In this document: piece after piece, positions 40,500-58,492 of the stretch | Position numbering within the stretch: position 1 is the first letter of the stretch | Layout: every line of letters begins with the position of its first letter | Assembly: GCF_902833045.1 (NCBI RefSeq) | Contig: NZ_CADFDU010000004.1 | Coordinates: 558,001 to 622,000, forward strand | DNA: 64,000 nucleotides | Direction of reading: 5' to 3' | From: Burkholderia sp. BCC0322 | GTDB lineage: Bacteria; Pseudomonadota; Gammaproteobacteria; Burkholderiales; Burkholderiaceae | The notes under the pieces: model-generated | Databases searched by the model: none | What the model saw: only the letters and a program-made list of their open reading frames with translations | Told to the model about the DNA's origin: nothing | Translations under genes and position numbers: made by a program

Positions 40500-42724
40500 C
40501 AGAACTGCCCGCGCACGGTCAGCATCACGTTGCGCGGTTCCCCGTAACGGTTGTTCCAGCCCGGGTTGCTCAGGCTCAGGTAGTACTTGCGGTCGAACAG
40601 GTTGTTGACGTTGACCGCCGCGCTCCAGTGCTTGTCGTAGCGGTAGCCGAGCCGCACGCTCGCGAGCGCGTAGCCGCCCTGGCTCATCGTGACGCCGTTC
40701 GCCTGCGCCGAGTAATTGCTCTGCACCTGCAAGCCGCCGCCGATGCTCCAGCGCCGCTCCTGCCACGGCAGGTCGTAGTTGGTCCACAGCCGGAACAGGT
40801 GGCGCGGGTTCAGCAGCGGCGCGAACGACGAGCCCGCGTTCGCGAGGTTGTCCGCATAGCGCATCGTGTCGTACGTGTAGCTCGCCCACACGCTCCACCA
40901 CGGCGTGATGCGGCCGTTCGCCTCGAACTCGAAGCCCTGGCTGCGCACGCTGCCGCCGTTCACGTAGTAGCAGTTCGGCCCCGCGCACGGATGCGCGAGA
41001 TCGACCTGCGGGTTGTTGTCGAGATCGATGCGGAACGCCGCGAGCGACACGTTGAGCTTGCCGCCCGCCAGTTCGCCCTTCACGCCCGTCTCGTAGGTGC
41101 GCCCCTTCACCGGCGTCAGGATGCCGCCGCCCCACATCGACTTGGTTTGCGGCTGGAACACTTCCGCATAGCTTGCGTACCACGACCAGTCGCGCGCGAA
41201 ATCCCAGATCAGCCCGCCGTACGGCGTGAACTGGTGGCCGGTGTTGTAGTGCGCGCCGAGGCTGTCCTGGTTCCACCAGCTCACGCGGCCGCCGAGCACG
41301 AGCGTGACGGGTTCGGCGAGCTTGATGCGGCCGAGCCCGTACACGCCCTTCTGCGAAATGTCGTTCTGCTGCGACTGCTGGTACGGGCCAACGTCCGGCT
41401 CGGGCACGCTGCTCGGGTTCCAGCGGTACACGTTCACCGGCGTGCCGACCACGTTGCCCAGGAGTTGCGCCGACATCTGCCCGCTGCTGCTGTTCGCGTA
41501 GGTCATGCCGAACAACAGGTCGTGCGTGAGCCCGAACGCGTGCACCGGGCCCTGCACGTTCGCATCGAGGCTGCGGCTGTAGCTGCTGAACTGGTACGCG
41601 CCGCCCGTCAGCGCGCCGCCCGCGCCGGTCGCCGGGTTGATCGCGCCGTACGAGCCCGCGTATTTCAGGTCCGAGCGCACGCTCTGGTATTCGCCGCTGA
41701 CCTTCGCCTTCCAGCCGGCGCCGAGCTTCTGCTCGACCGATGCGAACGCGCGCGTCGTGTCCCAGTCGAAGTGGCCCCACGCGGTGTCGAGGAACGTCGA
41801 GCGCGACAGGCCGAGGCTCGACCCGTCGCGCGCCATCGGCACGCCGGACATGTCGGGCACCGATCGGGTCGTCTGGTATTGCGCGCCGAACGTGAGCAGC
41901 GTGTCGCGCGTCACGTCGACTTCCGTGATGCCGTAGATCGACCGCGTGTCCTGCTTGGCGTGGTCGTAGAAGAAATGGCGATCCTCGTACGCGGCGACGA
42001 GCCGGCTGCGCACGGTGCCGGCCGCATTGAGCGGCCCGCCGATGTCCGCTTCCGCGCGATAGCGGTCCCAGCTGCCGACGCTCACGCTCGCGTTCGCGGA
42101 AAACTGGTACTGCGGCCGCTTGCGCACGAGGTTGACCGTCGCGGCCGGGTTGCCCGAGCCGTGCAGCAGGCCGTTCGCGCCGCGCAGGATTTCCACGCGC
42201 TCGTACACGGAGATGTCCTGCGGCGCGCTCGCCATGTCGCCGATCACCACCGGCACGCCGTCGAATTCGAACGAATCGACCTTGAAGCCGCGCACGAAAT
42301 ACGCGGTGGTGAGCAGCACGTAAGGCTGCACCGTCACGCCCGCCGACTGCTGCATCACTTCGTCGAGCGAGTACAGGTTCTGCTGGTCGATCCGCTCGCG
42401 CGTCGTCACGCTGACCGACTGCGGAATCTCCCTCAGCGCAAGCGGCATCTTGCCGACCGTCGCGACCGACGGATCGTCGGCCACGCCGCGCGACGCGTTC
42501 ACCGAAATCGCCTTCAGCTCGCCCGCGGCGGGCTTCACGGCGGTCGTTTCCTCCTTCCGGACTTCCGCGCCGGCCGCCGGCGCCGCATCCGCGAACGCCG
42601 CCGCCGGATGCGCGGCGATCAGCAGGCCCAGATACAGCGACGAACGCCAGCGCCCTCGCCCCAAACGGGCAACGCGCGCACCCTTCGTCCTTGATCTCCC
42701 AGGTTCCAGCACCTCGTACCGCAT
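40499..42724 (-). CDS. fptA: Ferric-pyochelin TonB-dependent outer membrane receptor
   Basis: A 741-aa receptor: signal peptide (about 26-46; [21 protein letters not shown]), TonB box region, plug domain (about 70-220; [49 protein letters not shown]) and a 22-strand barrel ending in LTVRGQF with terminal Phe. Assignment to pyochelin rests on position beside the pch genes. A Fur-like box at 42741-42759 is only 16 bp before the start, with 21-bp-spaced direct repeats further upstream. Confidence 0.93.
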
Positions 42725-42740
42725 TCACGCCCCCGTATTT

Positions 42741-42759
42741 GATAATCATTCTCATTATC
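42741..42759 (-). promoter_or_regulatory. Fur box of fptA
   Basis: GATAATCATTCTCATTATC. Read on the minus strand it matches 17 of 19 bases of the classical GATAATGATAATCATTATC. A -10-like GATTAT (42747-42742) lies inside it, so Fur with iron would block the promoter. Confidence 0.9.
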
Positions 42760-42775
42760 AAATAGAACCGGCGGG

Positions 42776-42808
42776 CGCTTTTTCGATCGAGGGGCTTTTC
42801 CTATCGAT
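42776..42808 (-). promoter_or_regulatory. Candidate PchR operator of fptA
   Basis: On the minus strand, ATCGATAGGAAA (42808-42797) and ATCGAAAAAGCG (42787-42776), offset by exactly 21 bp. The second half-site ends 28 bp before the -10-like hexamer inside the Fur box. The same layout occurs at pchD and pchE. Confidence 0.6.
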
Positions 42809-42837
42809 CCCGGGCATGCCGGATCGCATTGTTCACG

Positions 42838-44616
42838 TCAGTGTTCGGATTCGGCCGGCCGCGCTTGCGCGTCCACGTCCGCGTCCGCTTCGGCGGCCGA
42901 TGGCTTGTCGGGCGGCCGTCCGGCGCGGGCGAACGTCGCGTACCAGGTATCGGTCTCGACCAGTTGCGCGTGCGTGCCGGTCGCCCGCACCCGGCCCGCG
43001 TCGAGCACGACGATCGTGTCGGCGGCGGCCGCGAGCGCCGGCTGGTGCGTGACGACGATGCGCGTGCGCTGCCCGCGCAGCGCGACGAGGCTGTCGCGTA
43101 CGCGCCGCGCACTCAGTTCGTCGAGGCTCGCGGTCGGCTCGTCGAACATCAGCACCGGCGCACGCGCCAGCAGCGCGCGCGCGAGGCACGCACGCTGGCG
43201 CTGCCCGCCCGACAGCAACTGGCCGCCCGGCCCCACGTCGGACTCGAGCCCGCCCGGCAAGCGCTCGGCGTCGCGCAGCAGGCCGACCGCGTCGAGCGCG
43301 GCGCGCAGTTCGGCGTCGGTCGCATCCGGGCGGCCCATCCGCACATTCCACGCGAGGCTGCCGCGGAACAGCCCGTTGTCCTGGAACACGAGGTTGCGCG
43401 TCGCGGCGAGCGTCGCCTCGCTCAGGTGCCGCACATCGGAGCGGCCGAGCAGCACGCGCCCGGCACCCGGATCGTCGAGCCGTGCAAGCAGGCCCAGCAG
43501 CGTGCTCTTGCCGGCGCCCGTCGGGCCGACGATCGCGACGAAGCCGCCCGCCGGGCAATGCAGGTCGACGCCGTCGAGCAGCGTTGCGCCGCTGGCCGAC
43601 CGGTAGCCGACGCGCACCGCGTCGACGCTCGCATCGTGTACCGGCGTACCGCGCTCCGGGCTGTCGAAACGCGGCGCATGCAGTACCGCGAGCACGGTGT
43701 CGAGCGCGCGCCAGCCGCCGCGCAGCGCCTGGTCGAGCTGGGTGAGCTGCGCGAGCGGCTCGATGAAGCGAACGAGCAGCACGAGCACCGCCACGGCCGT
43801 CGCGGCATCGAGCCGGCCGGTCGAGACGGCCCACGCGCCGCCCACCAGCATCGCGACGAACACGCCCTGCACCGCGCCCGCGAAACCGAGCTCGATCGGC
43901 AGCGAGCGTCGCATCAGTGCACGGGTGCGGCGATGCTGCTCGTCGAACGCGTGCTGCAGCGCCGCGCGCGCGTCACCTTCCCGGCCCGCGAAGCGCAACA
44001 GCCCCTGATGCGCGGCAAAGGTCTGAAGCTGCACGGCCATCTCGCGATCGCCGGACGCGCGGGCCTGTTCGAAAGCGAGCGTCCGCGTCCCGCCGCGTTC
44101 GAGCAGCGCGAACAACAACACGGCGGCTGCCGCGAGGCACAGCGCGATGCGCCAGTCGATCCACACGAGCCCCGCGACGACCGCGAGCGGCGTCACGACC
44201 GCGCCGATCAGCGGCCCGAGCAGGTGCGCCGGCATCCCCATCGCCTGCATGACCGGCCCGCGCAGCAGCCCGGCCGGATGACTGTCGCGCACCGTCTGCC
44301 ACGACGCGATGCGCGGCAGGTGCCGCACGAGGCGTTCGACGAGACCGGCCGCGAGCGCGCCGCCCGCGCGATAGCCGCCGCGCTGCGCGACGTACAGCAC
44401 GAAGGCGTGGCACAGGGTCAGCGCGCCGAGCGCGATCGTCCAGTGCAGCACGGCCGCAGGCACGCCGGCGAACCATGCGCGGATCAACGGCACGAGCAGC
44501 AACCCGCAGGCGCCGTCGAGCAACGCGGCGGCCACCGCCCAGCCGACCCCGCGCCACAGCGCGCGGCGGGTTTCGGAGGGCAGGCACTGCAAACGTTTGA
44601 GCGTCTTCGTCATCAT
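42838..44616 (-). CDS. pchI: ABC transporter half (permease-ATPase fusion) of the pyochelin locus
   Basis: A 592-aa protein: N-terminal six-TM ABC exporter domain (about 20-310) and C-terminal ATPase with Walker A GPTGAGKST, signature LSGGQRQRACLARA, Walker B VLMFDEPTASLD and H-loop VTHQPA. In Pseudomonas aeruginosa pchHI follow pchG. They resemble yersiniabactin YbtP/YbtQ, so import or handling of the siderophore is possible despite the exporter fold. ATG 44616 overlaps the pchH stop by 4 bp. It probably forms a heterodimer with PchH. Confidence 0.9.
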   Translation of the reverse strand: MMTKTLKRLQCLPSETRRALWRGVGWAVAAALLDGACGLLLVPLIRAWFAGVPAAVLHWTIALGALTLCHAFVLYVAQRGGYRAGGALAAGLVERLVRHLPRIASWQTVRDSHPAGLLRGPVMQAMGMPAHLLGPLIGAVVTPLAVVAGLVWIDWRIALCLAAAAVLLFALLERGGTRTLAFEQARASGDREMAVQLQTFAAHQGLLRFAGREGDARAALQHAFDEQHRRTRALMRRSLPIELGFAGAVQGVFVAMLVGGAWAVSTGRLDAATAVAVLVLLVRFIEPLAQLTQLDQALRGGWRALDTVLAVLHAPRFDSPERGTPVHDASVDAVRVGYRSASGATLLDGVDLHCPAGGFVAIVGPTGAGKSTLLGLLARLDDPGAGRVLLGRSDVRHLSEATLAATRNLVFQDNGLFRGSLAWNVRMGRPDATDAELRAALDAVGLLRDAERLPGGLESDVGPGGQLLSGGQRQRACLARALLARAPVLMFDEPTASLDELSARRVRDSLVALRGQRTRIVVTHQPALAAAADTIVVLDAGRVRATGTHAQLVETDTWYATFARAGRPPDKPSAAEADADVDAQARPAESEH

Positions 44617-46334
44617 GCGGCCTCCCCGCCAGCGGCACCGCGTTCGCGCCATAGCCGCGCATACAACCCGCCCGAGGCCAGCAGCGCCGCATGCGTGCCG
44701 CGCTCGACGATGCGGCCGCGATCCATCACGAGAATCTGGTCCGCATGCCGGATCGCGTCGAGATCATGGCTGACGATCACGCGCGTGCGCGCGTCGCCGC
44801 GCAGCGCATTGCGCAACGCACGCCCGGTTTGCGGATCGAGCGCCGAGGCCGGTTCGTCGAGCAGCAGCAACGGCGCCGGCGACAACCACGCGCGCGCGAT
44901 CGCAAGGCGCTGCAGTTCGCCGCCGGACAGCCGCACGTCGCGCCCGCACACGCAATCGTAGCCGCCCGGCAACGCGTCGATGCGTTCGTCGAGGCAGGCC
45001 GCGCGCGCGGCCGCGCAAATCGCGTCGCGATCGGCATCCGGCCGGTAAAGCGCAATGTTCGCGGCGATCGACACGTCGAGCGCGGCGGCCTGCTGGAACA
45101 CCATCGCCACCTGTTCGCGCCGCGTATCCGACGCGAGCAGCCGCAGGTCGGCGCCGCCGAGCCCCACCGTGCCGTGGTCCGGATCCATGAAACGGGCGAG
45201 CAGCATCAGCAGCGTGCTCTTGCCCGCGCCCGACGGCCCGACGATCGCGGTGGTCGTGCCTGCCGCGATCGTCGCATCGATGCCGCGCAGGATCGACGTA
45301 CCGTCGATGTCGACACGCACACCGCGCAGCTCGATCGACGCGTCGCGCGGCACCTGTGCGGTGCCATCGGCCGGCTCGGGCAGGCCCGGCTGGGCGAGCA
45401 ACGCATCAAGGCGTGCAGCGGCCGCTCGCGCTTCGCGCAATGCGTCGGCGCCGTGGCCGAGCGCGCGCACCGGCGCGGCGACCGCCCAGATCAGCAGCGC
45501 GAACGCGCACAGTTCACCGACCGGCAAGCGGCCTGCCGTCAGCCCCATCGCGCCGAGCATGACCCACGCGAGCAGGAACGGCGTGCCGAGCAGCACCTGC
45601 GTGCATGCACCGGGCCCGCCGACACGGCCGACCCACGCCGAAAACGCCTGTTCGAAGCGCCCGGTCGACTCCAGCGCGGCCGCTTCGATGCCGGCGCCCG
45701 GGTACTGCCGCACGAGCGCCGGGTTCTGCGCGAGCTGTGCGTAGTCGCCCATCAGCCCTTCGAGCGCCGCGTTGCGCGCCGCGACGGCCGGTGCGAACCG
45801 CGCCGAGCGCATCCAGCGAAACAGTGCGACACCCACGACGAGCGGCACGAGCGCGAACGCGAGCAGCGCGGGATTCAGGTAAAGCAGGCACGCGAGCGCC
45901 GCGCACGGCACGACGATCAGCTGCGTGACGTCGGCCGGCGCATGCGCGACGAGCTGGTGCAGCGCACGCACGTCCTGGTCGACGTGACGCGCGACGCGAT
46001 CGCTGCCCACACGGGCGAACCAGCCGAGCGGCAAGCGTTGCAGATGATCGGCGAGGCGCCTGCGCAAGCGATCGGCGAGATCGGCGTCGACACGGTGCGT
46101 CAGGTGCAGCGCGACCGTCTGCCCGCCCAGCCAGCCCACGCCGGCCACCACGGCCGCGACGAGCCAGCCGCGCGCCGATGCGTCGAGCTGCGCCGCCGCA
46201 CGCCACGCGTCGGCGACCCGGCCGAGCGCGAGCCACGGCACGAGCGATGCGACACCCGCCAGCGCCTGCAGCACGACCGCCGCCACGAGCGGCACCGCGA
46301 ACGGCCGCAACATCGACAGCAACGGCCCCTTCAT
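44613..46334 (-). CDS. pchH: ABC transporter half (permease-ATPase fusion) of the pyochelin locus
   Basis: A 573-aa partner of PchI with the same architecture: TM domain (about 8-300), Walker A GPSGAGKST, Q-loop MVFQQAAALDVSI, signature LSGGELQRLAIARA, Walker B LLLLDEPASALD and H-loop VSHDLDAI. Its start overlaps the pchG stop by 4 bp. The true ATG 46334 (MKGPLLSMLRP) lies well inside a much longer open frame that continues antisense into pchG. Confidence 0.9.
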   Translation of the reverse strand: MKGPLLSMLRPFAVPLVAAVVLQALAGVASLVPWLALGRVADAWRAAAQLDASARGWLVAAVVAGVGWLGGQTVALHLTHRVDADLADRLRRRLADHLQRLPLGWFARVGSDRVARHVDQDVRALHQLVAHAPADVTQLIVVPCAALACLLYLNPALLAFALVPLVVGVALFRWMRSARFAPAVAARNAALEGLMGDYAQLAQNPALVRQYPGAGIEAAALESTGRFEQAFSAWVGRVGGPGACTQVLLGTPFLLAWVMLGAMGLTAGRLPVGELCAFALLIWAVAAPVRALGHGADALREARAAAARLDALLAQPGLPEPADGTAQVPRDASIELRGVRVDIDGTSILRGIDATIAAGTTTAIVGPSGAGKSTLLMLLARFMDPDHGTVGLGGADLRLLASDTRREQVAMVFQQAAALDVSIAANIALYRPDADRDAICAAARAACLDERIDALPGGYDCVCGRDVRLSGGELQRLAIARAWLSPAPLLLLDEPASALDPQTGRALRNALRGDARTRVIVSHDLDAIRHADQILVMDRGRIVERGTHAALLASGGLYARLWRERGAAGGEAA

Positions 46335-47383
46335 GCGGCACGCTCCAGCAGCATGCCGAGCGTGGCCGCGCACGCGTCGCCCGGCGGCGGCTCCGGAAAA
46401 CCGAGCTGCATCGTCAGTTGCTGCCAGACGCGCGTCACGTCGATGCAGCGCTGGTTGCACGCCTGCAGCCCTTCGCCCGACACGAGCCGATCGACCGCGC
46501 GCACGGCCGCCTGCGGCCAGCCGCGCGTATGAATCGCGCCCCACGTGTCGCGCGCATCGTCGCAAATCTGGATGCTCGGCATGTCGCTGCCCGCCGCGTC
46601 GCCGAAGATCGGGAACAGCCCGTGTTCGTCGATCTCCGGTTCGCGCAGCGCCGGCGCCCACCACAGCGGGCCATGCGGCGACGCGAGCGTCCACGTGCCG
46701 GCATCCGTCGTCAGCGTGATGCCGAACAGCATGCTCATCCGGCCGTCGTCGGCCGCCGCCATCTCGTTGTGCACGCGCAGCGAGACCGGCGTTTCGGCCA
46801 GCACCATCGCGCATTCGCGCATCGACGACAGGGCCGGCCCGATCGGTTCGACCGACCACGGGCCCACGCCCTGCAGCGCGGCCGCGAGCACGTCGAGCGC
46901 CGCGAAACTGGCCTGCACCGAACACACGACATCCGCATGCACCGGCGCACTCGTCTCGCGCAGCCGCCGCGCGACGGCGATGAAGCGGGAGACAACCGGC
47001 AGGTTCGGATAGAAGCTGTTGAGCAGGCAGCGGCGGCCATGACGCGACGCGGTGCGCAGCACGCGATCCCATTCGTCCGGCAGCAGCGGATGCTCGATCA
47101 CGACATCGATCCCGCGTTCGAGGAGCCGGCACGCGAGCGCGGCCCCGTCGGCGCCGCGCGCCGCGCCACCGACCGCGACGCACGCCACGCGCACGTCGTC
47201 GGGCAGCGCTTCCGGACGGTCGAATACAGGCGCGCCGACGCGCGCGGCCAGCGCGGCGGTGCGCGCACTGCCTTGCCCCAGGATGCCCGCGACGCAATAC
47301 GCATCGGACGCGGCGATGCCCGCCGCATAAAACTGGCCGAAGCGGGAGCCGGCCACGACGACCGGCAGCAGATGGACCTTCAT
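46331..47383 (-). CDS. pchG: Pyochelin thiazolinyl imide reductase
   Basis: A 350-aa NADPH-dependent enzyme that reduces the second thiazoline to a thiazolidine while the chain is on PchF. The Rossmann N-terminus (MKVHLLPVVVAGSRFGQFY) and the conserved HPLLPDEWD and NSFYPNLP regions match the Irp3/PchG family. It overlaps pchF and pchH by 4 bp at each end, so it is fully coupled in the operon. Confidence 0.93.
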   Translation of the reverse strand: MKVHLLPVVVAGSRFGQFYAAGIAASDAYCVAGILGQGSARTAALAARVGAPVFDRPEALPDDVRVACVAVGGAARGADGAALACRLLERGIDVVIEHPLLPDEWDRVLRTASRHGRRCLLNSFYPNLPVVSRFIAVARRLRETSAPVHADVVCSVQASFAALDVLAAALQGVGPWSVEPIGPALSSMRECAMVLAETPVSLRVHNEMAAADDGRMSMLFGITLTTDAGTWTLASPHGPLWWAPALREPEIDEHGLFPIFGDAAGSDMPSIQICDDARDTWGAIHTRGWPQAAVRAVDRLVSGEGLQACNQRCIDVTRVWQQLTMQLGFPEPPPGDACAATLGMLLERAA

Positions 47384-50300
47384 TGCGCCTCCTTCAGGCG
47401 GGTGTCGACGAACGCGCCGTTCAGGCAGTCGAAATGACCGCCGGGAATATCGACGGGCGTGATGCCGCCGAGCGCCTGCGCCGTCCAGTATTCGGTGAGC
47501 GCCGCGCGCTGCTGCGGAATCAGCGGGTTGCAGCGCTCCGGCACGAACAGCCGCAGCGCACCCACGTAGGGCGCGTCGCCGGCCCAGTGGCTCGCCTGCA
47601 CCGAATGCATGAAGAGCCGGTACAGCCGTTCGCGTTCGTCGAGCAGCGGATGCGCGAGCTCGTCCTGCATCGACAATCCGGCGGCCGCGCGCAGCACGCG
47701 GCGGCGCAATGCATCGAGCGGCTCGCAGCGATCGCCGAAAATCTCCAGCTGCGCCTGCAGGCTGCCGGGCGCGAGACGCGCGGGGTCGGCCTTCAATGCG
47801 TCGGCAAGCGCGTCGGCCAGCACATACGTTTCCGGAAACCCGAGCGCGTCGAGCGGCAGCCCGAGCGTCGCCGCGAAGTTGAACAGCACGAGCCGCTCGT
47901 CTTCGATCAGGTACGGAATCCGGTAGCTCGACACGATGTCGAGCGTGCGCACTTCAACGCCAAGCTGCACCAGCGACTTCGCCATTTCGAGCGCGACCAG
48001 CCCGCCCGAGCAGTAGCCGAGCACGTCGACCTCGCGCACGCCGGTGCGCCACAACGCATCGGCATAACGCCGGCCGAGCGTCGCGTTCAGGTGGCGCGCC
48101 GGCACATCGAGATAGTCCTGCGCGTCGCGCACCGCGAAGCCGAGCACCGGGCCGAGCCGCGCGAGCGCCGGCATGACCGGACGATACGCATGCACGGTGC
48201 CGAGCCCTTCGTGCACGATGACGCGCGGCACGCCGTCGCCCGGCGCCAGCGGAATCGGGCGTACGCCGGCGCGCACGCGGGGCGCAGGCGCGTGGATCAC
48301 CGCCGATGCGCGAGTCGTGCGCGGGACGGCCGGTGACGATGCGCCCGCCTGCCGCTCGCCCGCATCGCGCAGGCATTGCGCGAACGCAGCCGGCGTCGGT
48401 TGCGCGAGCACCCAGCGCAGCAGCCGGTCGAACGGATGCGCTTGCGCAAGCGGTTCCTCGCCACGCAGCCTCGACACGAGCTGCGCGATCAGCAGCGAAT
48501 CGCCGCCCGCGGCGAAGAAGTCCTGATCCGGCGTGACGTCGCGCGTATCGAGCACGGCTTCCCACAAGCCGATCAGCCGCGCCAGCAGCGGATCGGCGGC
48601 AGTCTGCGCGCAGGCCGGTCGAGCGGCCGCCGGCTCCGGCTCGCGGATGTCGGCGATGCCGGCCAGCGTACGGCGGTCGATCTTGCCGTTCGCGGTCACG
48701 GGCAGACGGTCGAGCACACGCAATTGCGACGGCACCATGTAGCCCGGCACGCGCTCGGCGACGAACGCCAGCAGCGCATCCGGCGCGATGCGCGCCGCGC
48801 CGCGCTTCACGTGCGCGAGCAGGATGTCGTAACCGAGCACGTCGAGCGGCGTGCCGGGTGCCACGCAACCCAGCGCACGATCGCCCCCATCCGACTGCAA
48901 CCATTCGAGCCACTGCGCACGCGGCACGAACAACCGCGCCGACTCGGCGCGCGCGTCGCTCGGCGTTTCCATCATCAGCCCCTGGCTGACGCTGATCTCC
49001 GGATGCTCGGTCGTCAGTTCCTGAATCACCCACCACGCATCGGCCGCCGACAACGCACGCAGCCCGGCGACCAGCGCGACCGTGTCGCGCGCGTTGTTCA
49101 GCGCGCCGGAGCTGATCATCACGTCGATCGAGTGCGGCGCGATGCCCTGCGCGTCGAGCGGCGCATTCATGTCGAATCGCTCGAACCGCATCCACGGATA
49201 CGCGGCGAAGCGCTCGCGCGCCGCCGCGAGGAAATAGCTCGACACGTCGCTGAACAGGTAGTCGATCCGTGCGCCCGCTTCGACCAGCGGCGCGAGCGCG
49301 TCGACGATCGTCCGCGTCGCCGCAGCCGTTCCCGCGCCGATCTCGAGGATTCGCCATGGCCGCTGCGGCTCGCATGCGACGATCGCGCGGACGGCCTGTG
49401 CCATCCCGTTGTGCAGTGCGTGCGCATGTTCGCCGTCGCTGTACATCGCATCGGCGATATGCGATGCGCCTTCCGGGAACATCAGGCCGGCAGGCGACAC
49501 GCTGCCGTCCACCTGCACGTCGATGCATCCCGCGCTGTCGCGGAAGTAGTCGACGAGGACGGCGGGCCACAGATCGGGCGACGCCTCCTTCGCAAACGCG
49601 TCCCAGCATGCGTGCGCATCGGCGAGGCCGGCATCGGGCCGCAGACGCCAGCCGCCTGCTTCGGCATCCGCATGCAGCACGCCGTGCCTGTCGAGCATCG
49701 CGAGCCAGTGGCGCAGCAGATGCTGCCGCGCCGCCGGCACGCGCAACCGTTCGCACAACGTCGCAAAATCCGTCGCGGCATCCTCGGTCAGCGCCCCCGC
49801 CGGCACGATCCACGCGGCCAGCGACGCAACGCAGGCCGCCTCGAGCTGGGCGACCGACCGCGCCACGTCCGCATGCGCGGGCCAGCGCGCGGTGTCGAAC
49901 GCCGTGCGCACGTGCTTCGCGATCTCGTGCAGCGCGTCGTCGTGCGCCAACGTCGACGGCTCGGCACCGTGCAGCGACGCGAAGCTCGCGAGCCTGCGCT
50001 CCGCGCCTTCGCCGAGCACGATCGTCGCGGCCGCGCCGACGAGCGGATGCGCGGTCAGCGCCGCATCGATCTCGGCCAGCTCGATCCGATAACCGCGGAT
50101 CTTCACCTGATCGTCCTGCCGCCCAAGGAATTCGAGCGAACCGTCAGCGCGCACGCGGCCAAGATCGCCGGTGCGATAAAGCCTGCGCCCGTCGCGATGA
50201 AGAATGAAGCGTTCGGCCGTTCGCACGGGATCGTTCGCGTAACCCGTGGCAAGCCCCACACCGCCGATATGAATCTCGCCGCGCACGCCGGGCGGGCACG

Positions 50301-52854
50301 GCCGGCCGAGTGCGTCGAGCACTTCCATCGTCTGCCCGGTCAGCGCGCGGCCGTATGGAATGCTGGCAAGCTGCGTGTCCGCCGGACAAATCGGATGCTC
50401 GATCGACCAGATCGATGCCTCGGTCGCGCCACCCAGGCTGAACAGCGCGCTGTCGGGCCAGCGCCGCCACCAGCGCGTGGGCAGCGTCACCGGAATCCAG
50501 TCGCCCGACCACAGCACGCGGCGCGGGCCGGGCACGTCGAGCGCCGGTTCGCCGTCGAGGTAGTCGATCAGCATCTGCCCTTGCGCGGGCACCGAGTTCC
50601 ACAGCGTCACGCGATGGCGCACGATCAGCTCGGCCCAGTGCGACGGATCGTTGCCGCGCGCCGGATCGGGCAGCACGACGCACGCGCCGCGCGCGGTCGC
50701 GCCGAAGAAGTCGTAGACGGACAGGTCGAAGCTCAGTTCGGCAAGGCCGAGCACCACGTCGCCGTCGCCGACTCGATGGCGCGCGCTGATGTCGGCAAGC
50801 GTGTTGCACACGGCCGCGTGGCTCAGCATCACGCCCTTCGGCTCGCCGGTGGAACCCGACGTATAGATCACATACGCGAGCGCGTCGCCGTCGATATCGC
50901 ACGCAGCGCGCGGCGGCCATTGCGGATCGGCCGGCAACGCATCGATATCGATGCGCACGCAACCATCATGTTCGAAGTCGAGCGCCTGCACGCTGACGAC
51001 CGCACGCACCCGGGCATTGCGCAGGATCGCCTGTTGCCGCAGCGCCGGCTGGCGGCAGTCGACCGGTACGTACGCGGCCCCCGCCTGGACGATCCCGAGC
51101 ACGGCCGCGAGCTGGTTCGCACACTTCGGCATCAGCACGGCAACGGTGTCGCCCGGGCCGGCGCCGGCCTGTTCGAGCGCGGATCGCAGCGCCGCAGCGT
51201 GTTGCGCGACGTCGCGATACGTGCGCGCGCCCTGCGCATCGATCACCACCGGCGCATCGGGCGTACGCAACGCCTGCGCGGCGAAGCCGGCCGCGATATG
51301 CGTATCCGCATCCGGGTGGACATCGGCAACGGGTGCGTCGCACGGCAGCACGATGTCGCCCGCGCGCGACCACCATTCGGCATCGGCGGCGAGCCGGCCC
51401 AGCAGCGCGACATACGCATCGAACATCGCCGCGGGCATTCCGTCCGGAAACAGTTCGTCGCGCACGTCCCAGCCGATTTCCAGTCCGCCGAACTGGTCGG
51501 TCACCTGGCAGTCGAGCCAGACCTGCGGCGTCTGACTGATCATGTAGCGCGGCGGCTCGGCGCGAGACGGGTGCTCGCCGAGCAGGCGGCCCACACTGCC
51601 GATGCCGCTCGTGAACACCACCGGCATCAGCGCCGCATCCTTGCCGCGCCGCCGCGCGAGTTCGCGCATCACGTCGACGCCGGTAAACGCGCGATGGTCG
51701 AGATCGTCGAACATCCGCGCGCCGATCGTGCGGGCGCGCTCGACGAAATCGCGCCCTTGCGTCGCATCGACCGCGAGCAGGCTCAGTGCGGTGAAATCGC
51801 CGAGCACCGCGTCGATGCGCGGATGCACGGGCGGACGGTTCAGCACCGTCAGGTTCAGGCAGAACGCGGGCGACTGGCTCCAGCGGCCGACGACCTCGGC
51901 GAACGCGGCCAGCGCGACACTTGCCGCGCTCAGCCCGAAGCGGCTCGCGTGGCCGCTCAGCGCGCCCCATTGCGCACGATCGAGCCGCGCATGCCGGTGC
52001 GTGAAACGCGGCCGCGCGTCGGCACGCCTCGCAGGCACCACCGGCAGATCGGGGCGCGCCGGCAGATCGTCGATGCGCGCCAGCCACCACGCCTTGTCGC
52101 GCGCCTGATCGGCGCGCGTGCCGGCATGGGCTTGATTGACGACATAGTCACGGAACGTCGCGTCGAGCGGCGCGGGCTGCCATTGCGGATCGTCGTAACG
52201 GCGCCGCCATTCGGCGAGCAGCAATTGCAGGCTCGCGTAATCGATCAGCGTGAAATCGACGGACAGGTGCAGCACCGCGCCATCCGGCCCGAGGCTCACT
52301 TCCGGCTGCAGCACCGGCCAGCGATCGAGCGCGTGCACCGCATGGTCGAGGCGCCCGCGCACGCTGCCTACATGCGCGTCGAATGCGTTCGCATCGGCAT
52401 CGCGCAGGTCGTGCACCGTGAGCGGCTGCCACGGCACGTCGGGCAGCACGCGCTGCCATGCGTTGTCCTCGACGATCGCGCGCAGCATCGGATGCCGCAC
52501 GACGCACGCATTCCACGCCGCCTCGAAGCGCACGCAGTCGAGATTCGCGGGCTCGCCGTATTCGACGTACAGATGGCACGCATTGCCGCCGAACTCGAAC
52601 GATTCGTGCCGGCCGAGCACGTACGCGGCCTGCACCGGCGTCAGCGCGAACCGCTCGTGCCGGCGCGCCGGATCGCTGCGCCACGCGCCGTCCTGCAGGA
52701 AGCGGACGAACGCGTCGCGTTCGGCCTTGATGCGCGCGGCCAGCTCCGCATCGAGTGCGCCGGCCGGCGCGCGATAGCGCAACTGGCCGCCGTCGTCGCA
52801 CCATAGTTCGATCTGGCGTTCGCGGCAAAGATCGAGCACGTCATCGAAGCTCAC
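47380..52854 (-). CDS. pchF: Pyochelin synthetase PchF (NRPS module: Cy-A-MT-PCP-TE)
   Basis: A 1824-aa megasynthase that adds and cyclises the second cysteine, N-methylates it and releases pyochelin. In order: a TubC-like N-terminal docking domain (1-55; RERQIELWCDDGGQLRYRAP), Cy domain (about 70-490; DFTLIDYAS motif), A domain (A3 YTSGSTGEPKG near 665), embedded methyltransferase (EIGAGTAAATR near 1170), PCP (GGDSLL, Ser1453) and thioesterase. The TE nucleophile motif reads GYCSGG, with Cys1615 in place of the usual Ser. It overlaps pchE and pchG by 4 bp. Confidence 0.96.
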   Translation of the reverse strand: MSFDDVLDLCRERQIELWCDDGGQLRYRAPAGALDAELAARIKAERDAFVRFLQDGAWRSDPARRHERFALTPVQAAYVLGRHESFEFGGNACHLYVEYGEPANLDCVRFEAAWNACVVRHPMLRAIVEDNAWQRVLPDVPWQPLTVHDLRDADANAFDAHVGSVRGRLDHAVHALDRWPVLQPEVSLGPDGAVLHLSVDFTLIDYASLQLLLAEWRRRYDDPQWQPAPLDATFRDYVVNQAHAGTRADQARDKAWWLARIDDLPARPDLPVVPARRADARPRFTHRHARLDRAQWGALSGHASRFGLSAASVALAAFAEVVGRWSQSPAFCLNLTVLNRPPVHPRIDAVLGDFTALSLLAVDATQGRDFVERARTIGARMFDDLDHRAFTGVDVMRELARRRGKDAALMPVVFTSGIGSVGRLLGEHPSRAEPPRYMISQTPQVWLDCQVTDQFGGLEIGWDVRDELFPDGMPAAMFDAYVALLGRLAADAEWWSRAGDIVLPCDAPVADVHPDADTHIAAGFAAQALRTPDAPVVIDAQGARTYRDVAQHAAALRSALEQAGAGPGDTVAVLMPKCANQLAAVLGIVQAGAAYVPVDCRQPALRQQAILRNARVRAVVSVQALDFEHDGCVRIDIDALPADPQWPPRAACDIDGDALAYVIYTSGSTGEPKGVMLSHAAVCNTLADISARHRVGDGDVVLGLAELSFDLSVYDFFGATARGACVVLPDPARGNDPSHWAELIVRHRVTLWNSVPAQGQMLIDYLDGEPALDVPGPRRVLWSGDWIPVTLPTRWWRRWPDSALFSLGGATEASIWSIEHPICPADTQLASIPYGRALTGQTMEVLDALGRPCPPGVRGEIHIGGVGLATGYANDPVRTAERFILHRDGRRLYRTGDLGRVRADGSLEFLGRQDDQVKIRGYRIELAEIDAALTAHPLVGAAATIVLGEGAERRLASFASLHGAEPSTLAHDDALHEIAKHVRTAFDTARWPAHADVARSVAQLEAACVASLAAWIVPAGALTEDAATDFATLCERLRVPAARQHLLRHWLAMLDRHGVLHADAEAGGWRLRPDAGLADAHACWDAFAKEASPDLWPAVLVDYFRDSAGCIDVQVDGSVSPAGLMFPEGASHIADAMYSDGEHAHALHNGMAQAVRAIVACEPQRPWRILEIGAGTAAATRTIVDALAPLVEAGARIDYLFSDVSSYFLAAARERFAAYPWMRFERFDMNAPLDAQGIAPHSIDVMISSGALNNARDTVALVAGLRALSAADAWWVIQELTTEHPEISVSQGLMMETPSDARAESARLFVPRAQWLEWLQSDGGDRALGCVAPGTPLDVLGYDILLAHVKRGAARIAPDALLAFVAERVPGYMVPSQLRVLDRLPVTANGKIDRRTLAGIADIREPEPAAARPACAQTAADPLLARLIGLWEAVLDTRDVTPDQDFFAAGGDSLLIAQLVSRLRGEEPLAQAHPFDRLLRWVLAQPTPAAFAQCLRDAGERQAGASSPAVPRTTRASAVIHAPAPRVRAGVRPIPLAPGDGVPRVIVHEGLGTVHAYRPVMPALARLGPVLGFAVRDAQDYLDVPARHLNATLGRRYADALWRTGVREVDVLGYCSGGLVALEMAKSLVQLGVEVRTLDIVSSYRIPYLIEDERLVLFNFAATLGLPLDALGFPETYVLADALADALKADPARLAPGSLQAQLEIFGDRCEPLDALRRRVLRAAAGLSMQDELAHPLLDERERLYRLFMHSVQASHWAGDAPYVGALRLFVPERCNPLIPQQRAALTEYWTAQALGGITPVDIPGGHFDCLNGAFVDTRLKEAQ

Positions 52855-55800
52855 AGCACGCCCTCCTCGATCGCGGCGACCGGTGTGCCGCCCTCGGCCT
52901 TCGACGCAGGCACCGCCGATGCTGCCTCGTCAAGCTGCGCGGCGAGACCCGCGAGCGTCGGCTGCCGGTAGAACGCAGCCATCCCGACCCGCACGCCGAG
53001 CCGCTCGCGCAGCTGCGCGAGCAGGCGCGTCGCGAGCAGGCTGTCGCCGCCGAGCGCGAAGAACGTCGCGTCGCGCGCGTTCGCCGGGCGGCCAAGCGCG
53101 TGCTCCCAACACGCGAGCAGCGTCGCCTGCCGTTCGTCGGCCGGCACGAACGCATCGTGGGCGGCCGGCGCATCGCCGAGCGCTCGCGCAAGCGCGTCGC
53201 CTACCGCCCGTCGATCGATCTTGCCGTTCGCGTTGAGCGGCCAGCGCGCGATGCACCACAGCGCATCGGGACGCATCGCGTCGGGCAGCCGGTCGCGCAA
53301 CCAGTCGGCCAGCGCCGCTTGCGGAGCCGCCTCGCCGACACGGCGTGCGTCGATGCACGCAAAGGCAGTCGAGCGCCAACTCCGGGAATCGTCCAGCGCA
53401 AAGCCGCACGCGTGCGCCGCCGACGCCAGCGCATCGTGCGCGAACGGCCGCGGCAGCGACGCATCGCCCGTCACCCCCGCGACGAGCTCACGCAGCGGCG
53501 AATCGCGCAGCACGTCGGCGAGCAGCAAGTGGCCATGCTGCGCCAGCAACGCCGCTGCGATCCGGAACGTGTCGCGCGGATCGTCACGCAGGTGGGCCGC
53601 CGCGAAGCTGATCACGCAATCGAACCGGCCGAGATGGCGCGCGGGCAGCAGGCCGTCCTGCATCGCCTGCAGCGTCGGCGTCGTGTGTACGAAGTACGCC
53701 TGCGCGTTGTGCAGCAGGCCTGGCGACGCGTCGAACAGCGTCACGTCGAAGCGCGGATCGTCAAGCACGCCGAGCCCCGCATCGAACCATTGCCCGGCAC
53801 GCGCGTCGAGCACCGCGACCCGCACCGGTTCGGTGTGCGCGGCGGCCAGGGCCTGCAGCGCATCGCCAAACTGGCGCAGCGCGCGTGCGCCATCCGGCAG
53901 GCGCGCCGCGAACGCGAGCGGCGCGATCCGCGGATCGAGCGGCACACGCCGCGCGGCGCCTTCAGGGTCGGCGGCGAGCACGCGCAGCGAGCCGGTCAGG
54001 TCGTCGAGATCGGCGGCATGCCAGCCGAGCAGATCGAGCGCGCCGTCGATCGAAATCGCTACGTCATCCTTTGCATGCCCATGCGCGCGCAGCGACGGCG
54101 GCCAGCCCGTATCGCCGTCGACCAGCCGATCGGCGACCGCGCGCGCGACGGCTACTTCCGCGTGCACGGTATCGGCCAGGTCCGCTTCCACGAGCGCGGG
54201 CGACGACGGCGTGGCATCCGCTGCGCGATCGGCCGGCACGAACGCAGCCGCGATACGCGCGGCTTCGCCGCCAACGACGCTTGCGCACGCACCGTCGATC
54301 AGCGGATGCGCGGCCAGCGCCGCCTCGATCTCGCCCAGTTCGATCCGGTGCCCGCGCACCTTCACCTGGCGATCCTCGCGCCCCAGGAATTCGAGCGTGC
54401 CGTCGGGCCAGTAGCGGCCACGGTCGCCCGTGCGATACCAACGGCCCGACGCCTGCTGCACGAAACGCTGCGCGGTCAGCTCGGGATCATTCCGGTAGCC
54501 GCGCGCGAGGCTGTCGCCGCCAATCAGCAGTTCGCCCGGCACATAATCCGGCACATCGCGGCCATCGGCGTCGACGACACGATAGGCCTGCCCCGGCAAC
54601 GGCCGGCCATACGGAATCGAACGCCAGTGCGGCGGCACGTCGCGCACCGTCTGCACGTTCGACCAGATGCCGGCCTCGGTCGCACCGCCGAGCGCATGGA
54701 AAGCGCAGGCGTCGCCGCACCGTTCGCGCAGACGCGCCGGCAGGTCGAGCGCGATCCAGTCGCCCGACAGCAGCGCCGCGCGCACGCTGCGGCACGCGTC
54801 GGCCGCAGCGGGCACCGCCAGCACCATTTCCAGCAGCGCGGGCGCCGAATTCCACAGCGTCACGCGATGCTGCGCGATCAGCTCGATCCAGCGCACCGCG
54901 TCGCGCGCGTCATCCTGGGTCGGCAGTACCAGCTCGGCGCCCGCGCCGAGCACGCCGAACAGGTCGTACACCGACAGGTCGAAATCGAGCGCCGAGACCG
55001 CGAGCAACCGGTCTTGCGCATGCACGCCGAGCAGGGCATCGATCGCATCGATCGTGTTGAGCGCCGCGGCGTGCGTCATCTCGACACCCTTCGGCACGCC
55101 CGTCGAGCCGGACGTGTAGATCACGTAAGCGGTGGCCTGCGGCGCCACCGCGAGCGGCGCGGCCAGCGGTTCGTGCCGCATCAGCGCCGCGATGCCGAAA
55201 TGCGGCAGCGGCGCATCGGCGAGCGTCGCGTCGCCGATCGCGGCCTTGACACCGGCCGCACGCTCGATCAGCGCCTTGCGCGCGGGTGGCTGAGCGATAT
55301 CGAGCGGCACGTAGCACGCGCCGGCGGCCAGCACGCCGAACACCGCGGCCACCTGTGCGGGCCCGCGCGGCAGACTGATCTCGACGGCATCGCCGCGACC
55401 GATGCCGGCCGCCCGCAGGCCACCCGCGATCGCCAGCGCCTGCGCAGCCAGTTCGCCGCGCGTCACCACCTGCTCGCCGCAGCGCAATGCGACGGCCTCC
55501 GGCTCGCGCGCGGCCGATGCGAAGAAGTCCGCATGCAGCGTGCGCGGCCGCGCGGATGCAGGCACTGCGTTGAGCGCATCGCGCACGCGCCGCTGCGCGG
55601 ACGGCAGCTCGACTGCGATCGGCAGCCGCCAGTCGCGATCGCACAGCGCCTGCACGAGCGCGACATACGCGCCGAACATCGCATCGATCATGCCGTCGGG
55701 AAACAGGCCGTCGACGCTGTCCCACGCGAGCAGCGCGCCATCGGGCACGCGATAGAGCTGATGGTCGAGCCATACCTGCGGCGTCTGCGAAATCATGTCG

Positions 55801-57254
55801 TGCAGATCGCCGAACACGCGCGCGAACGCGTCGGGCACGAACGGCGCGTCGCCGAGATTGCACGAGAACACGACGGGCGCTGCGCGCGGCGCGCCCTGCC
55901 GGCGCGCATCGCGCAGCACTTCGAGCGCCGGATAGGCTGCCTGTGCGATCGCGCCGTGCAGTCGCTGCTGGAGCGCGCGCACCGTGTCGGCCGCGCTCGC
56001 GTCGGCGCGCATGTCGCATTCGACGAGCAGCAGCGTCGTGAAATCGGCGATCACGCGGCCGAGGTCGGGCGCATCGCCGTGCCGGTCGAACAGCGGTACG
56101 TTGAGCAGGAACGCCTGCCGGCCGCTCCAGCGCGCGAGCACCGCGGCGAACGCCGCGCCGAACACCGACGACAGCGTGACGCCATGCTGCGCGGCCCGCG
56201 CCTGCAGGCGCGCGAGTTCGGCCGTGCTCAGCGTATGCGCGACGCGGCTGAAACGCGGCGCACGGATCGTTTCCGGCGCACAGGCAAGCGGCAATGCCGG
56301 CCCTTCGGGCAACGCGGCAAGCCGCGCATGCCAGGCATCGCGCGCCGCGGCCCGCGCTTCGCGCGTATCGGCCGCGCGACGCGCGAGCCAGGCCGGGAAC
56401 CACGTCGACGGCGCATCGGGCAACGCCGATGGCTCGGCATACGCGGCGCCGATCTCCTGCATCAGCAGCCGCACGCTGTCCACGTCGGCCGCGAGCAGGT
56501 CGACGCTCAGCCACACGCGATCCTCGCCGCCGGGCATCTGCACGAGCCCCATCATGAAGACCTGCGCGTGCTCGACGTCGAGACATTCGTGCGACCGGCG
56601 CGCGCGAAGCGACTCCCATTCGGCTTGCGCATCGGCGGCCATCTTGTCGCGCCAGTCCGCATGCGCGAACACCGGCGCGTCCGGCGCCGCGACGATCTGC
56701 TGGCGGCCACCGCTGAAGCGCGCGCGCAGCATCGGATGGCGCGCACGCACAAGTTGGCACGCCGCATCGAGACGAACGGGATCGATCGCGCGGCTGCGAA
56801 ACTCGAGGAACGCGTGACAGCTCACGCCGCCGAGCACTTCTTCGTCACTGCGGCCAAGCCAGTACGCCTGCTGGACCGCGGACAAGTCGAACGGCGCATG
56901 CACGTCGACCTCGGCAGCCTCGGCCGCCCCGACGTCGGGCATCGCGGGCGCGACGCGCGGCGCATTCGCGAGCAGCTCGGCCCACGCGCCGAGCGTCGGC
57001 GTGCGCGCGAGCGCATCGAACGTCAGCGCGTAACCGAGGCGATTCACGCGCGTCTGCAGATACATCAGCCGGATCGAATCGAGGCCGCAGCTCAGCAGGT
57101 CCTCGTCATCGTCGAGCGACGCGATTTCGTCGACGGGTTCGTCGAGCAGCTCGGCGATCATCGCGACGAGCTGCGAGCGAAAGGCTATGGGAGAAAAACG
57201 GGAAGGATCGGAATGATCGATGCTGGAATCGACAGCGGTCTGGCTCATGGGCAC
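52851..57254 (-). CDS. pchE: Dihydroaeruginoate synthetase PchE (NRPS: ArCP-Cy-A-E-PCP)
   Basis: A 1467-aa synthetase that couples salicylate to L-cysteine and forms the first thiazoline. In order: aryl carrier domain (GLDSIR, Ser60), Cy domain (about 115-560; DLLAADVDS near 256), A domain (A3 YTSGSTGVPKG near 712; GREDRQVKVRGHRIELGE), an embedded MT-like domain (about 1070-1330), which in PchE acts as the epimerase, and a C-terminal PCP (GGDSLL, Ser1405). The promoter lies in the 117-bp gap after pchR, with a Fur-like palindrome and 21-bp direct repeats. Confidence 0.96.
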   Translation of the reverse strand: MPMSQTAVDSSIDHSDPSRFSPIAFRSQLVAMIAELLDEPVDEIASLDDDEDLLSCGLDSIRLMYLQTRVNRLGYALTFDALARTPTLGAWAELLANAPRVAPAMPDVGAAEAAEVDVHAPFDLSAVQQAYWLGRSDEEVLGGVSCHAFLEFRSRAIDPVRLDAACQLVRARHPMLRARFSGGRQQIVAAPDAPVFAHADWRDKMAADAQAEWESLRARRSHECLDVEHAQVFMMGLVQMPGGEDRVWLSVDLLAADVDSVRLLMQEIGAAYAEPSALPDAPSTWFPAWLARRAADTREARAAARDAWHARLAALPEGPALPLACAPETIRAPRFSRVAHTLSTAELARLQARAAQHGVTLSSVFGAAFAAVLARWSGRQAFLLNVPLFDRHGDAPDLGRVIADFTTLLLVECDMRADASAADTVRALQQRLHGAIAQAAYPALEVLRDARRQGAPRAAPVVFSCNLGDAPFVPDAFARVFGDLHDMISQTPQVWLDHQLYRVPDGALLAWDSVDGLFPDGMIDAMFGAYVALVQALCDRDWRLPIAVELPSAQRRVRDALNAVPASARPRTLHADFFASAAREPEAVALRCGEQVVTRGELAAQALAIAGGLRAAGIGRGDAVEISLPRGPAQVAAVFGVLAAGACYVPLDIAQPPARKALIERAAGVKAAIGDATLADAPLPHFGIAALMRHEPLAAPLAVAPQATAYVIYTSGSTGVPKGVEMTHAAALNTIDAIDALLGVHAQDRLLAVSALDFDLSVYDLFGVLGAGAELVLPTQDDARDAVRWIELIAQHRVTLWNSAPALLEMVLAVPAAADACRSVRAALLSGDWIALDLPARLRERCGDACAFHALGGATEAGIWSNVQTVRDVPPHWRSIPYGRPLPGQAYRVVDADGRDVPDYVPGELLIGGDSLARGYRNDPELTAQRFVQQASGRWYRTGDRGRYWPDGTLEFLGREDRQVKVRGHRIELGEIEAALAAHPLIDGACASVVGGEAARIAAAFVPADRAADATPSSPALVEADLADTVHAEVAVARAVADRLVDGDTGWPPSLRAHGHAKDDVAISIDGALDLLGWHAADLDDLTGSLRVLAADPEGAARRVPLDPRIAPLAFAARLPDGARALRQFGDALQALAAAHTEPVRVAVLDARAGQWFDAGLGVLDDPRFDVTLFDASPGLLHNAQAYFVHTTPTLQAMQDGLLPARHLGRFDCVISFAAAHLRDDPRDTFRIAAALLAQHGHLLLADVLRDSPLRELVAGVTGDASLPRPFAHDALASAAHACGFALDDSRSWRSTAFACIDARRVGEAAPQAALADWLRDRLPDAMRPDALWCIARWPLNANGKIDRRAVGDALARALGDAPAAHDAFVPADERQATLLACWEHALGRPANARDATFFALGGDSLLATRLLAQLRERLGVRVGMAAFYRQPTLAGLAAQLDEAASAVPASKAEGGTPVAAIEEGVL

Positions 57255-57302
57255 GCCTTGTATGGGTCGTTCGATGGCGGATCCGCGCGGCGGCGGCCAC
57301 CC

Positions 57303-57327
57303 GTGAATGAGAATCTATCTCATTCAC
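57303..57327 (-). promoter_or_regulatory. Fur-like palindrome in the pchE promoter
   Basis: Perfect 10-bp arms GTGAATGAGA (57303-57312) and TCTCATTCAC (57318-57327) around a 5-bp centre. The core TGAGAATCTATCTCA matches 10 of 14 defined positions of the 7-1-7 Fur motif. A -10-like TAGATT (57317-57312, minus strand) lies inside. Confidence 0.75.
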
Positions 57328-57344
57328 TCCCATGAGCCCGGTCG

Positions 57345-57377
57345 ATTGCTTTAGGCTGCCGGTCAGTTGTTTTAGAT
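57345..57377 (-). promoter_or_regulatory. Candidate PchR operator of pchE
   Basis: On the minus strand, ATCTAAAACAAC (57377-57366) and GCCTAAAGCAAT (57356-57345), offset by exactly 21 bp. The similarity extends to the whole 21-bp units (57340-57360 and 57361-57381). The upstream half-site overlaps the last codons of pchR. The downstream one ends 27 bp before the -10-like TAGATT. Confidence 0.65.
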
Positions 57378-58313
57378 TGCCGCGCGCGCCGTCCCGACGT
57401 CGTCGATCGCGTTCGAAGACGCACGAATATCGCTCGGCGAAATGCCGTAGCGCTTGCGGAACGCGATCGAGAAATGCGCGGGGCTGTAGCCCACGCGATA
57501 CGCCACGGTCGACACGTTCGCGTCCTCCGCGCACAGCATCGCGTGCGCGGTCCGCAGCCGGTATTCCTGCAGGTACGCATACACGCTCGTGCCGAACACC
57601 TTGCGGAAGCCGGCCGTCAGCTTGCGCGAATTCATCCCCACCCGGCCCGCGAGCGCGTCGAGCGTCGGCGGCTGCTGGAGCTCGCGCGTCAGGATGTCGC
57701 TCGCCGCATACACGCGCTCGACATCCGACGACGTGACGCGCACGTCGGCCGGCGCGAACTGCCGCTGCGTCGCCAGCAGTTGCGCGCTCAGCGCGGTCAG
57801 CTCGAACGCCTTGGCCTTCAGGAAGTACTCGCGCACCGCCCCCTCGAACGGGCAGGTCGCGATCTGCACCGCGAGCGCCTGCAGCGCCTTCGACGCCGGG
57901 CAGCTGACGATGCGCGGATCGCCGCCCGCCGGCGCGAGCATCTTCTCCGGCAACAGGCTCAGGTTGCGGTCGAGCGCGTCGAGGCCGAGCTGCACGATCG
58001 TGTAGCGCAGCGGCGTGTCGCGGTCGTAGATCTGGTGCGTCGTGAATTCGCCATCGTTGGCGATCACGCACAGCCCCGGCCCCTTGATGCATTGCTCGGG
58101 CTGGCCCGGCACACGGCAGCGCAACTGGCCGCTCTGCACGAGCACGAGCTTCAGCCCTTTTTCGAGCGGCTCCTCGTACCAGTCGCGGCTGTCCGAGCAC
58201 AGCGTGCCGCTCATGAGTTTCATGCCCGCGTCGATGTGCACCACGCCCGGATGATTGCCGGGCACGAGCACCGGCGGGTGACGTCGTGACGATGCGAAGG
58301 AGGTCGAGCTCAT
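57372..58313 (-). CDS. pchR: AraC-family pyochelin regulator PchR
   Basis: A 313-aa regulator that activates pch and fpt genes when bound to ferric pyochelin. The N-terminal domain binds the ligand; the C-terminal AraC domain (about 215-305) has two HTH motifs (LDALAGRVGMNSRKLTAGFR and VAYRVGYSPAHFSIAFRKRY). Start ATG 58313 (MSSTSFASSR) is chosen over the longer frame, which runs into the promoter region; its SD is weak. It is divergent from pchD and upstream of pchE. Confidence 0.93.
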   Translation of the reverse strand: MSSTSFASSRRHPPVLVPGNHPGVVHIDAGMKLMSGTLCSDSRDWYEEPLEKGLKLVLVQSGQLRCRVPGQPEQCIKGPGLCVIANDGEFTTHQIYDRDTPLRYTIVQLGLDALDRNLSLLPEKMLAPAGGDPRIVSCPASKALQALAVQIATCPFEGAVREYFLKAKAFELTALSAQLLATQRQFAPADVRVTSSDVERVYAASDILTRELQQPPTLDALAGRVGMNSRKLTAGFRKVFGTSVYAYLQEYRLRTAHAMLCAEDANVSTVAYRVGYSPAHFSIAFRKRYGISPSDIRASSNAIDDVGTARAAI

Positions 58314-58415
58314 CGGAGGTCCGTTGGTTAGGCGGCACGCGCGGCCCGGCGCGCGCCGGCGGCAACCGGCCGATTGTCCGGCCGGGCCGGGCGGGCGCCG
58401 CGCGACAGGCGCCCG

Positions 58416-58448
58416 ATCGAATGAAATTGCCGCGATATCGAAAGAAAC
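58416..58448 (+). promoter_or_regulatory. Candidate PchR operator of pchDCBA
   Basis: ATCGAATGAAAT (58416-58427) and ATCGAAAGAAAC (58437-58448), offset by exactly 21 bp. The second ends 27 bp before GATAAT (58476-58481), the -10-like hexamer inside the Fur-like box. It lies 103-135 bp upstream of the divergent pchR start, so binding could also repress pchR. Confidence 0.65.
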
Positions 58449-58471
58449 GACGCTATCGCGGCACTTGTTAC

Positions 58472-58492
58472 AAATGATAATACCTCTCATTT
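58472..58492. promoter_or_regulatory. Fur box between pchR and pchD
   Basis: Arms AAATGA (58472-58477) and TCATTT (58487-58492). The core TGATAATACCTCTCA matches 11 of 14 defined positions of the 7-1-7 Fur motif. It covers the likely pchD -10 and can serve both divergent promoters. Confidence 0.8.

Follow-up and report, generated by a model that had tools for sequence, protein, structure and literature searches.

The promoters of three siderophore operons in Burkholderia sp. BCC0322 share a direct repeat with a period of 21 bp, which is very likely the operator of the AraC-family regulator PchR (encoded at 57372-58313) and an element of the type known in Pseudomonas as the PchR box. The window, a stretch of 64,000 nucleotides from contig NZ_CADFDU010000004.1 (positions 558,001 to 622,000, forward strand), carries a pyochelin locus that comprises fptA, two ATP-binding cassette transporter genes, a thiazolinyl reductase gene, the synthetase genes pchF and pchE, pchR and a divergent pchD operon, with gene names assigned from protein family and position. 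Predicted PchR boxes sit upstream of the pchD, pchE and fptA operons. Upon rereading the sequence directly, we found all six 12-bp half-sites of the original prediction where it had placed them, with the members of each pair exactly 21 bp apart at all three promoters (Table 1). For the repeat, we have evidence on where it lies, how it is spaced, how well it is conserved and how it co-occurs with PchR, as well as on a recurrent offset to a −10-like hexamer. We consider the assignment to PchR very likely because the offset of 21 stands out among the alternatives and because profile matches in the genus (E ≤0.01) are found only at pyochelin promoters, in the genomes with strong PchR and in one fragmented genome that carries fptA; co-occurrence across the genus and a 21-bp spacing that appears in a motif-free test both support the predicted operator at these three promoters.

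We scanned genome records for PchR relatives, which were located at 78 loci via patterns in the two recognition helices, and took the 500-bp flanks of 61 of these loci (122 flanks), leaving out Burkholderia as well as eight matches that were weak or cut. With a half-site matrix made from Burkholderia only, 53 of the 122 flanks scored above the cut at a spacing of 21, compared with 2 to 14 flanks at any one of the remaining 20 spacings in the range 13-33. A motif-free test used the best 12-bp self-match at each of 36 offsets in 50 flanks from 25 non-Burkholderia representatives picked from the 61. The self-match was raised at offset 21 (mean 8.06 vs 7.15 in shuffles, z-score 6.6), where 16 of the 50 flanks had an identity of at least 9/12; the runner-up, offset 36, had a z-score of 3.7 and 11 such flanks.

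The consensus was derived from 46 boxes (6 from Burkholderia and 40 others) chosen by eye from the 122 flanks after removal of near-duplicates and of rows that did not look like ATCGAAAG; a profile was built from 29 of the 46. The pooled consensus reads nATCGAAAGAAAAAGTCCCGC followed by AATCGAAAGCCnnnnnCnTnG, and its halves are unequal: the distal half is conserved over about 20 bp (ATCGAAAGAAAnAGtCnCGC) and the proximal half chiefly over ATCGAAAG. In the chosen boxes, both halves always have the C of ATC and the first A of AAA, and AAAG keeps its G in 44/46 and 42/46 of the two halves, but the constancy of the C and G is overstated because the boxes were picked by resemblance.

A 42-bp weight matrix built from the 40 non-Burkholderia boxes only was scanned over the window. 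The three window boxes were its top three matches (34.9, 24.4 and 20.0), the fourth match scored 7.3 and the best of 100 dinucleotide shuffles reached 15.0. This test is partly circular because the 40 boxes had been selected using the Burkholderia half-site matrix. The motif-free spacing test, a genome search in P. aeruginosa PA7 and sites in Azospirillum and Methylobacterium are cleaner in this respect. In the 6.6-Mb genome of PA7, the 29-box profile had exactly three matches at an expectation value (E) ≤1, at pchD, pchE and fptA, and the fptA site was found although it had been left out of profile building. P. mangiferae likewise had exactly three profile matches at the pchD, pchE and fptA promoters, and promoters of P. 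protegens and other Pseudomonas also carry the 21-bp direct repeat. The original prediction had supposed that the Burkholderia operator takes a form of its own, different from the Pseudomonas box; we reject this idea, given the PA7 matches at the same three operons and the same repeat in the other Pseudomonas promoters. Among plasmid loci outside the training set, a regulator gene of Azospirillum lipoferum has a box on both flanks (44.1 and 33.3, with the next match at −1.1) and Methylobacterium aquaticum has one box (27.9, next −1.7), while no box was found at a P. nitroreducens regulator that lacks siderophore neighbors. Since distant bacteria also carry the box next to related regulators, it would represent a switch held in common and not one peculiar to Burkholderia.

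Within the genus, we searched the profile in 65 genomes with a main threshold of E ≤0.01. By sampled 31-letter words, the genome nearest to the window is G001, with 31% in common. Strong PchR homologs are present in 16 of the 65 genomes, in 15 of them at 95-99% identity and in G028 at 66%; a class-wide search of 369 genomes gave no PchR at E ≤1e-35 apart from that in G001. The profile matched 34 times in 17 genomes, with 16 matches on the pchD side, 16 at fptA and 2 at pchE. All 16 genomes with strong PchR have the pchD-side box, including one (G002) that retains only a remnant locus without pchD, and the fptA box occurs in 16 genomes, i.e. 15 of those with strong PchR plus G058. The latter, the only box genome beyond the 16, is 82% complete in about 1100 contigs; one contig bears fptA and its box, and strong PchR was not found in this fragmented genome. 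The other 48 of the 65 genomes had no box at the threshold (best 0.0107) and also no strong PchR, the lack extending to strong PchR and not to every pyochelin gene because FptA was not searched genus-wide.

The half-sites are also conserved across Burkholderia, as the original prediction had required of them: aligned promoters retain half-sites and Fur boxes, and the neighboring sequence varies. Among 14 close relatives, variable columns make up 8% and 8% of the first and second half-sites at pchD, 0% and 8% at pchE and 0% and 33% at fptA, where the proximal half-site is the least conserved half of all; upstream flanks have 45-63% variable columns. When the divergent G028 is compared with the window, the half-sites are 75-92% identical and the Fur boxes 70-80%, vs 41-45% for the upstream flanks.

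The window PchR has an AraC-type helix-turn-helix domain and is 66% identical to its PA7 relative over residues 17-313. A comparison with solved structures gave nine matches, all at the DNA-binding end of the protein and none of them to PchR. Across 25 relatives, the DNA-binding domain is 51-82% identical to that of the window PchR and the sensor domain 21-62%, a pattern that a constant operator read by regulators with variable sensors would fit.

The second half-site, measured from the end of its 12-mer, is followed after 27 bp (pchD and pchE) or 28 bp (fptA) by a −10-like hexamer, just as first proposed. We examined this register in 47 promoters, including one added PA7 fptA site, of which 40 remained after seven near-duplicates were dropped, and defined a −10-like hexamer as NANNNT with at least 4/6 matches to TATAAT; offsets 19-20 on this scale equal the 27-28 bp gap. 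Such hexamers peaked at offsets 19 (12 promoters) and 20 (7), hence in 19 of the 40 promoters with none double-counted, and any other single offset was occupied in at most 6 promoters, with 7 at the next-best neighboring pair away from 19-20. With Burkholderia excluded, 13 of 34 promoters still have a −10-like hexamer at these offsets. At box columns 40-42, 17 of the 47 boxes have a TTG, which would mark a −35 hexamer spaced by 17 bp from a −10 at offset 20; unlike them, the three window promoters all lack this TTG and have no recognizable −35. Matches to the 19-bp Fur consensus are strong in fptA and weaker in pchD and pchE (Table 1). A Fur-covered −10 at a fixed distance from the repeat thus stands in part: the −10 spacing recurs under a Fur-like palindrome, but a fixed distance from half-site to Fur box is rejected, since the second half-site and the palindrome center are 45, 41 and 37 bp apart.

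For P. aeruginosa, passages in PMC8477383, PMC9774294 and PMC10281387 describe activation of these operons by PchR with ferric pyochelin and repression by Fur. In the mechanism that we propose for the window, PchR would bind as a dimer, in complex with ferric pyochelin, head to tail on a single face of the helix, with the distal subunit reading about 20 bp (ATCGAAAG plus the GtCnCGC stretch) and the proximal subunit reading ATCGAAAG. Taking the hexamer 27-28 bp downstream as the −10 would place the half-site starts near −73 and −52; judging by this offset, the proximal subunit might end at the −35 position and touch the −35 region. An activator should be needed here because the three promoters have no recognizable −35, and Fur-Fe might occupy the −10 and veto transcription when iron is ample. 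With the two controls in place, the promoter would need both a low iron level and prior import of ferric pyochelin in order to fire.

Several results weigh against this assignment or against its promoter register. Because the PchR relatives were found by recognition-helix patterns, they are biased to regulators that are likely to share an operator. Of the 122 flanks, 37 had no pair above the score cut (85 passed), and the loci L114, L130, L133, L134 and L136 had no convincing box; at the weaker relatives L133, L134, L136, L137 and L138 nothing scored above 8.3. The pchE boxes of the genus match the profile weakly, reaching E ≤0.01 in 2 of 16 genomes and E ≤0.3 in 14 of 16, and G028 retains the pchE region rather well beyond the half-sites, with 78% identity in the spacer and 67% in the interval up to the Fur box. 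With respect to the register, 21 of the 40 promoters lack a −10-like hexamer at offsets 19-20, and that of Pseudomonas pchD promoters is mostly at 22-24; compared with the majority of these, the window pchD promoter has its hexamer about 3-5 bp closer to the repeat. The fptA promoter contains a rival GATAAT (42759-42754) that is nearer to TATAAT and lies 16 bp past the second half-site, and the original prediction therefore selected the hexamer that fits, although other genera support the choice of the farther one in general. Finally, the P. aeruginosa PchR motif from chromatin immunoprecipitation sequencing (ChIP-seq) given in PMC6610081, C/TGGC/TGCTG/TGCGG, is GC-rich and unlike the box. That motif occurs 258 times in the window within 2 mismatches and is unspecific for these promoters.

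The difference between the ChIP-seq motif and the box, as well as the weaker AraC-type matches present in many genus genomes, would be expected if the repeat were bound by some other AraC-type regulator encoded elsewhere and PchR used a different element, such as the ChIP-seq motif. We regard this as highly unlikely, because the boxes flank a PchR-type gene across classes, including the Azospirillum and Methylobacterium sites that took no part in matrix training, and because the 48 genus genomes without a box are also without strong PchR. Alternatively, the half-sites might be UP elements or phased A-tracts that act through binding of the RNA polymerase alpha subunit or through bending, without any specific regulator. 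They are A-rich, and positions of about −73 and −52 would suit such a role if the downstream hexamer is the −10. However, this would leave unexplained the near-constant C and G of the two halves (even allowing for their overstatement), the exact 21-bp spacing that emerges without any motif and the way in which the profile tracks PchR (16 of 16 genomes with it vs 1 of 49 others, the fragmented G058 with fptA), and we give this alternative slightly less credence again.

Chance similarity of A-rich stretches near Fur boxes, singled out afterwards, might have been suspected from just three promoters with a loose consensus and an fptA −10 picked from two. The spacing tests with and without a matrix, the profile searches of the genus and of PA7 and the sites outside the training set leave this a negligible prospect, and the weight-matrix ranking in the window agrees, though it is partly circular. 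A PchR operator is thus by far the most probable identity of the repeat.

The P. aeruginosa PchR box of Michel et al. 2005 is reportedly 32 bp long. The window box is like it in serving the same three operons, and the 21-bp repeat is predicted in P. aeruginosa strain PA7 (the comparison being with PA7, not PAO1); two half-sites at 21 bp with a second half of 11 bp would total 32 bp. AraC binds araI1-araI2 head to tail, as a direct repeat at 21 bp whose proximal half adjoins the −35 region. The window box has the same head-to-tail 21-bp repeat with its proximal half predicted to lie next to the −35 region, but the half-site letters differ, the effector would be a ferric siderophore and Fur would overlap the −10. 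YbtA of the yersiniabactin system is described, in PMC5634559 and PMC11225919, as an activator of the AraC type for siderophore genes that has repeated binding sequences, with a Fur site close to the promoter, and on this description it resembles PchR. Among the matches listed, a Klebsiella plasmid record includes a gene 39% identical to PchR that is labeled YbtA-like. An atlas from high-throughput systematic evolution of ligands by exponential enrichment names PchR, the binding letters being absent from the passage available (PMC8041468), and our literature searches found no description of a Burkholderia PchR operator. The PchR ChIP-seq data of PMC6610081 may deserve re-analysis.

On balance, we favor a single grammar, in which ATCGAAAG (A-rich, with GtCnCGC) is repeated at 21 bp and often stands 27-28 bp before the −10, as common to PchR-like siderophore regulators of alpha-, beta- and gammaproteobacteria; sensors would have been exchanged or diverged to suit different siderophores while the operator geometry stayed nearly frozen. 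If this is true, regulons, including those of orphan siderophore clusters, could be read from sequence because the geometry of operator and promoter would hardly change. Novelty may lie in how widely the operator is shared and in its promoter register. In addition to correcting the idea of a different Burkholderia box, the analysis offers a transferable model of the PchR operator for Burkholderia that predicts a three-operon regulon and extends to uncharacterized relatives, such as the regulator in a siderophore-like cluster on an A. lipoferum plasmid. On this plasmid (AZO_p2 of strain 4B, an alphaproteobacterium; L064), boxes at 4563 (−) and 5992 (+) surround the PchR-like regulator gene, which sits between AMP (adenosine monophosphate)-ligase/synthetase genes and a TonB-receptor gene.

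Table 1. Positions of genes and predicted promoter elements in the window
Feature	Position	Strand	Remarks
pchR	57372..58313	-	AraC-family regulator, 313 amino acids; Pfam HTH_18/PF12833 (4.4e-21), HTH_AraC/PF00165 (1.8e-10)
pchD	58531..60183	+	Aryl-AMP ligase; top family TIGR02275, 693 bits, under cut-off 723.55
pchE	52851..57254	-	Non-ribosomal peptide synthetase
fptA	40499..42724	-	TonB-dependent siderophore receptor; TIGR01783, 462 bits
Predicted PchR box, pchD promoter (42-bp profile span)	58415..58456	+	Half-sites 58416-58427, 58437-58448; highest-scoring match in window
Predicted PchR box, pchE promoter	57337..57378	-	Half-sites 57377-57366, 57356-57345
Predicted PchR box, fptA promoter	42768..42809	-	Half-sites 42808-42797, 42787-42776
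-10-like GATAAT, pchD	58476..58481	+	27 bp past second half-site
-10-like TAGATT, pchE	57312..57317	-	27 bp past second half-site
-10-like GATTAT, fptA	42742..42747	-	28 bp past second half-site
Fur-like palindrome over pchD -10	58472..58492	+	Best 19-mer 13/19; no variation among 14 close relatives
Fur-like palindrome over pchE -10	57304..57326	-	Best 19-mer 13/19
Fur box of fptA	42738..42762	-	17/19 to 19-bp Fur consensus

The stop codon of pchR (TAA, 57374-57372) overlaps the pchE box, inside its distal half-site. The corresponding base is different in G028, where pchR ends earlier. The G002 locus (L058) retains pchR, fptA and the pchD-side box, with no match to PchD and only a short match to the start of PchE, and looks like a receptor-and-regulator-only locus. 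The halves of its fptA promoter are 92-100% identical to those of the window, and the Fur palindrome of its pchE remnant is altered (83% identity to the window). At the Morganella locus L124, an extra box at 14373 (+) is separated from the regulator gene by about 3.5 kb; it precedes a TonB-receptor-like gene and is accompanied by a Fur-like box, and similar second boxes are present at the Proteus loci L119, L120 and L127.

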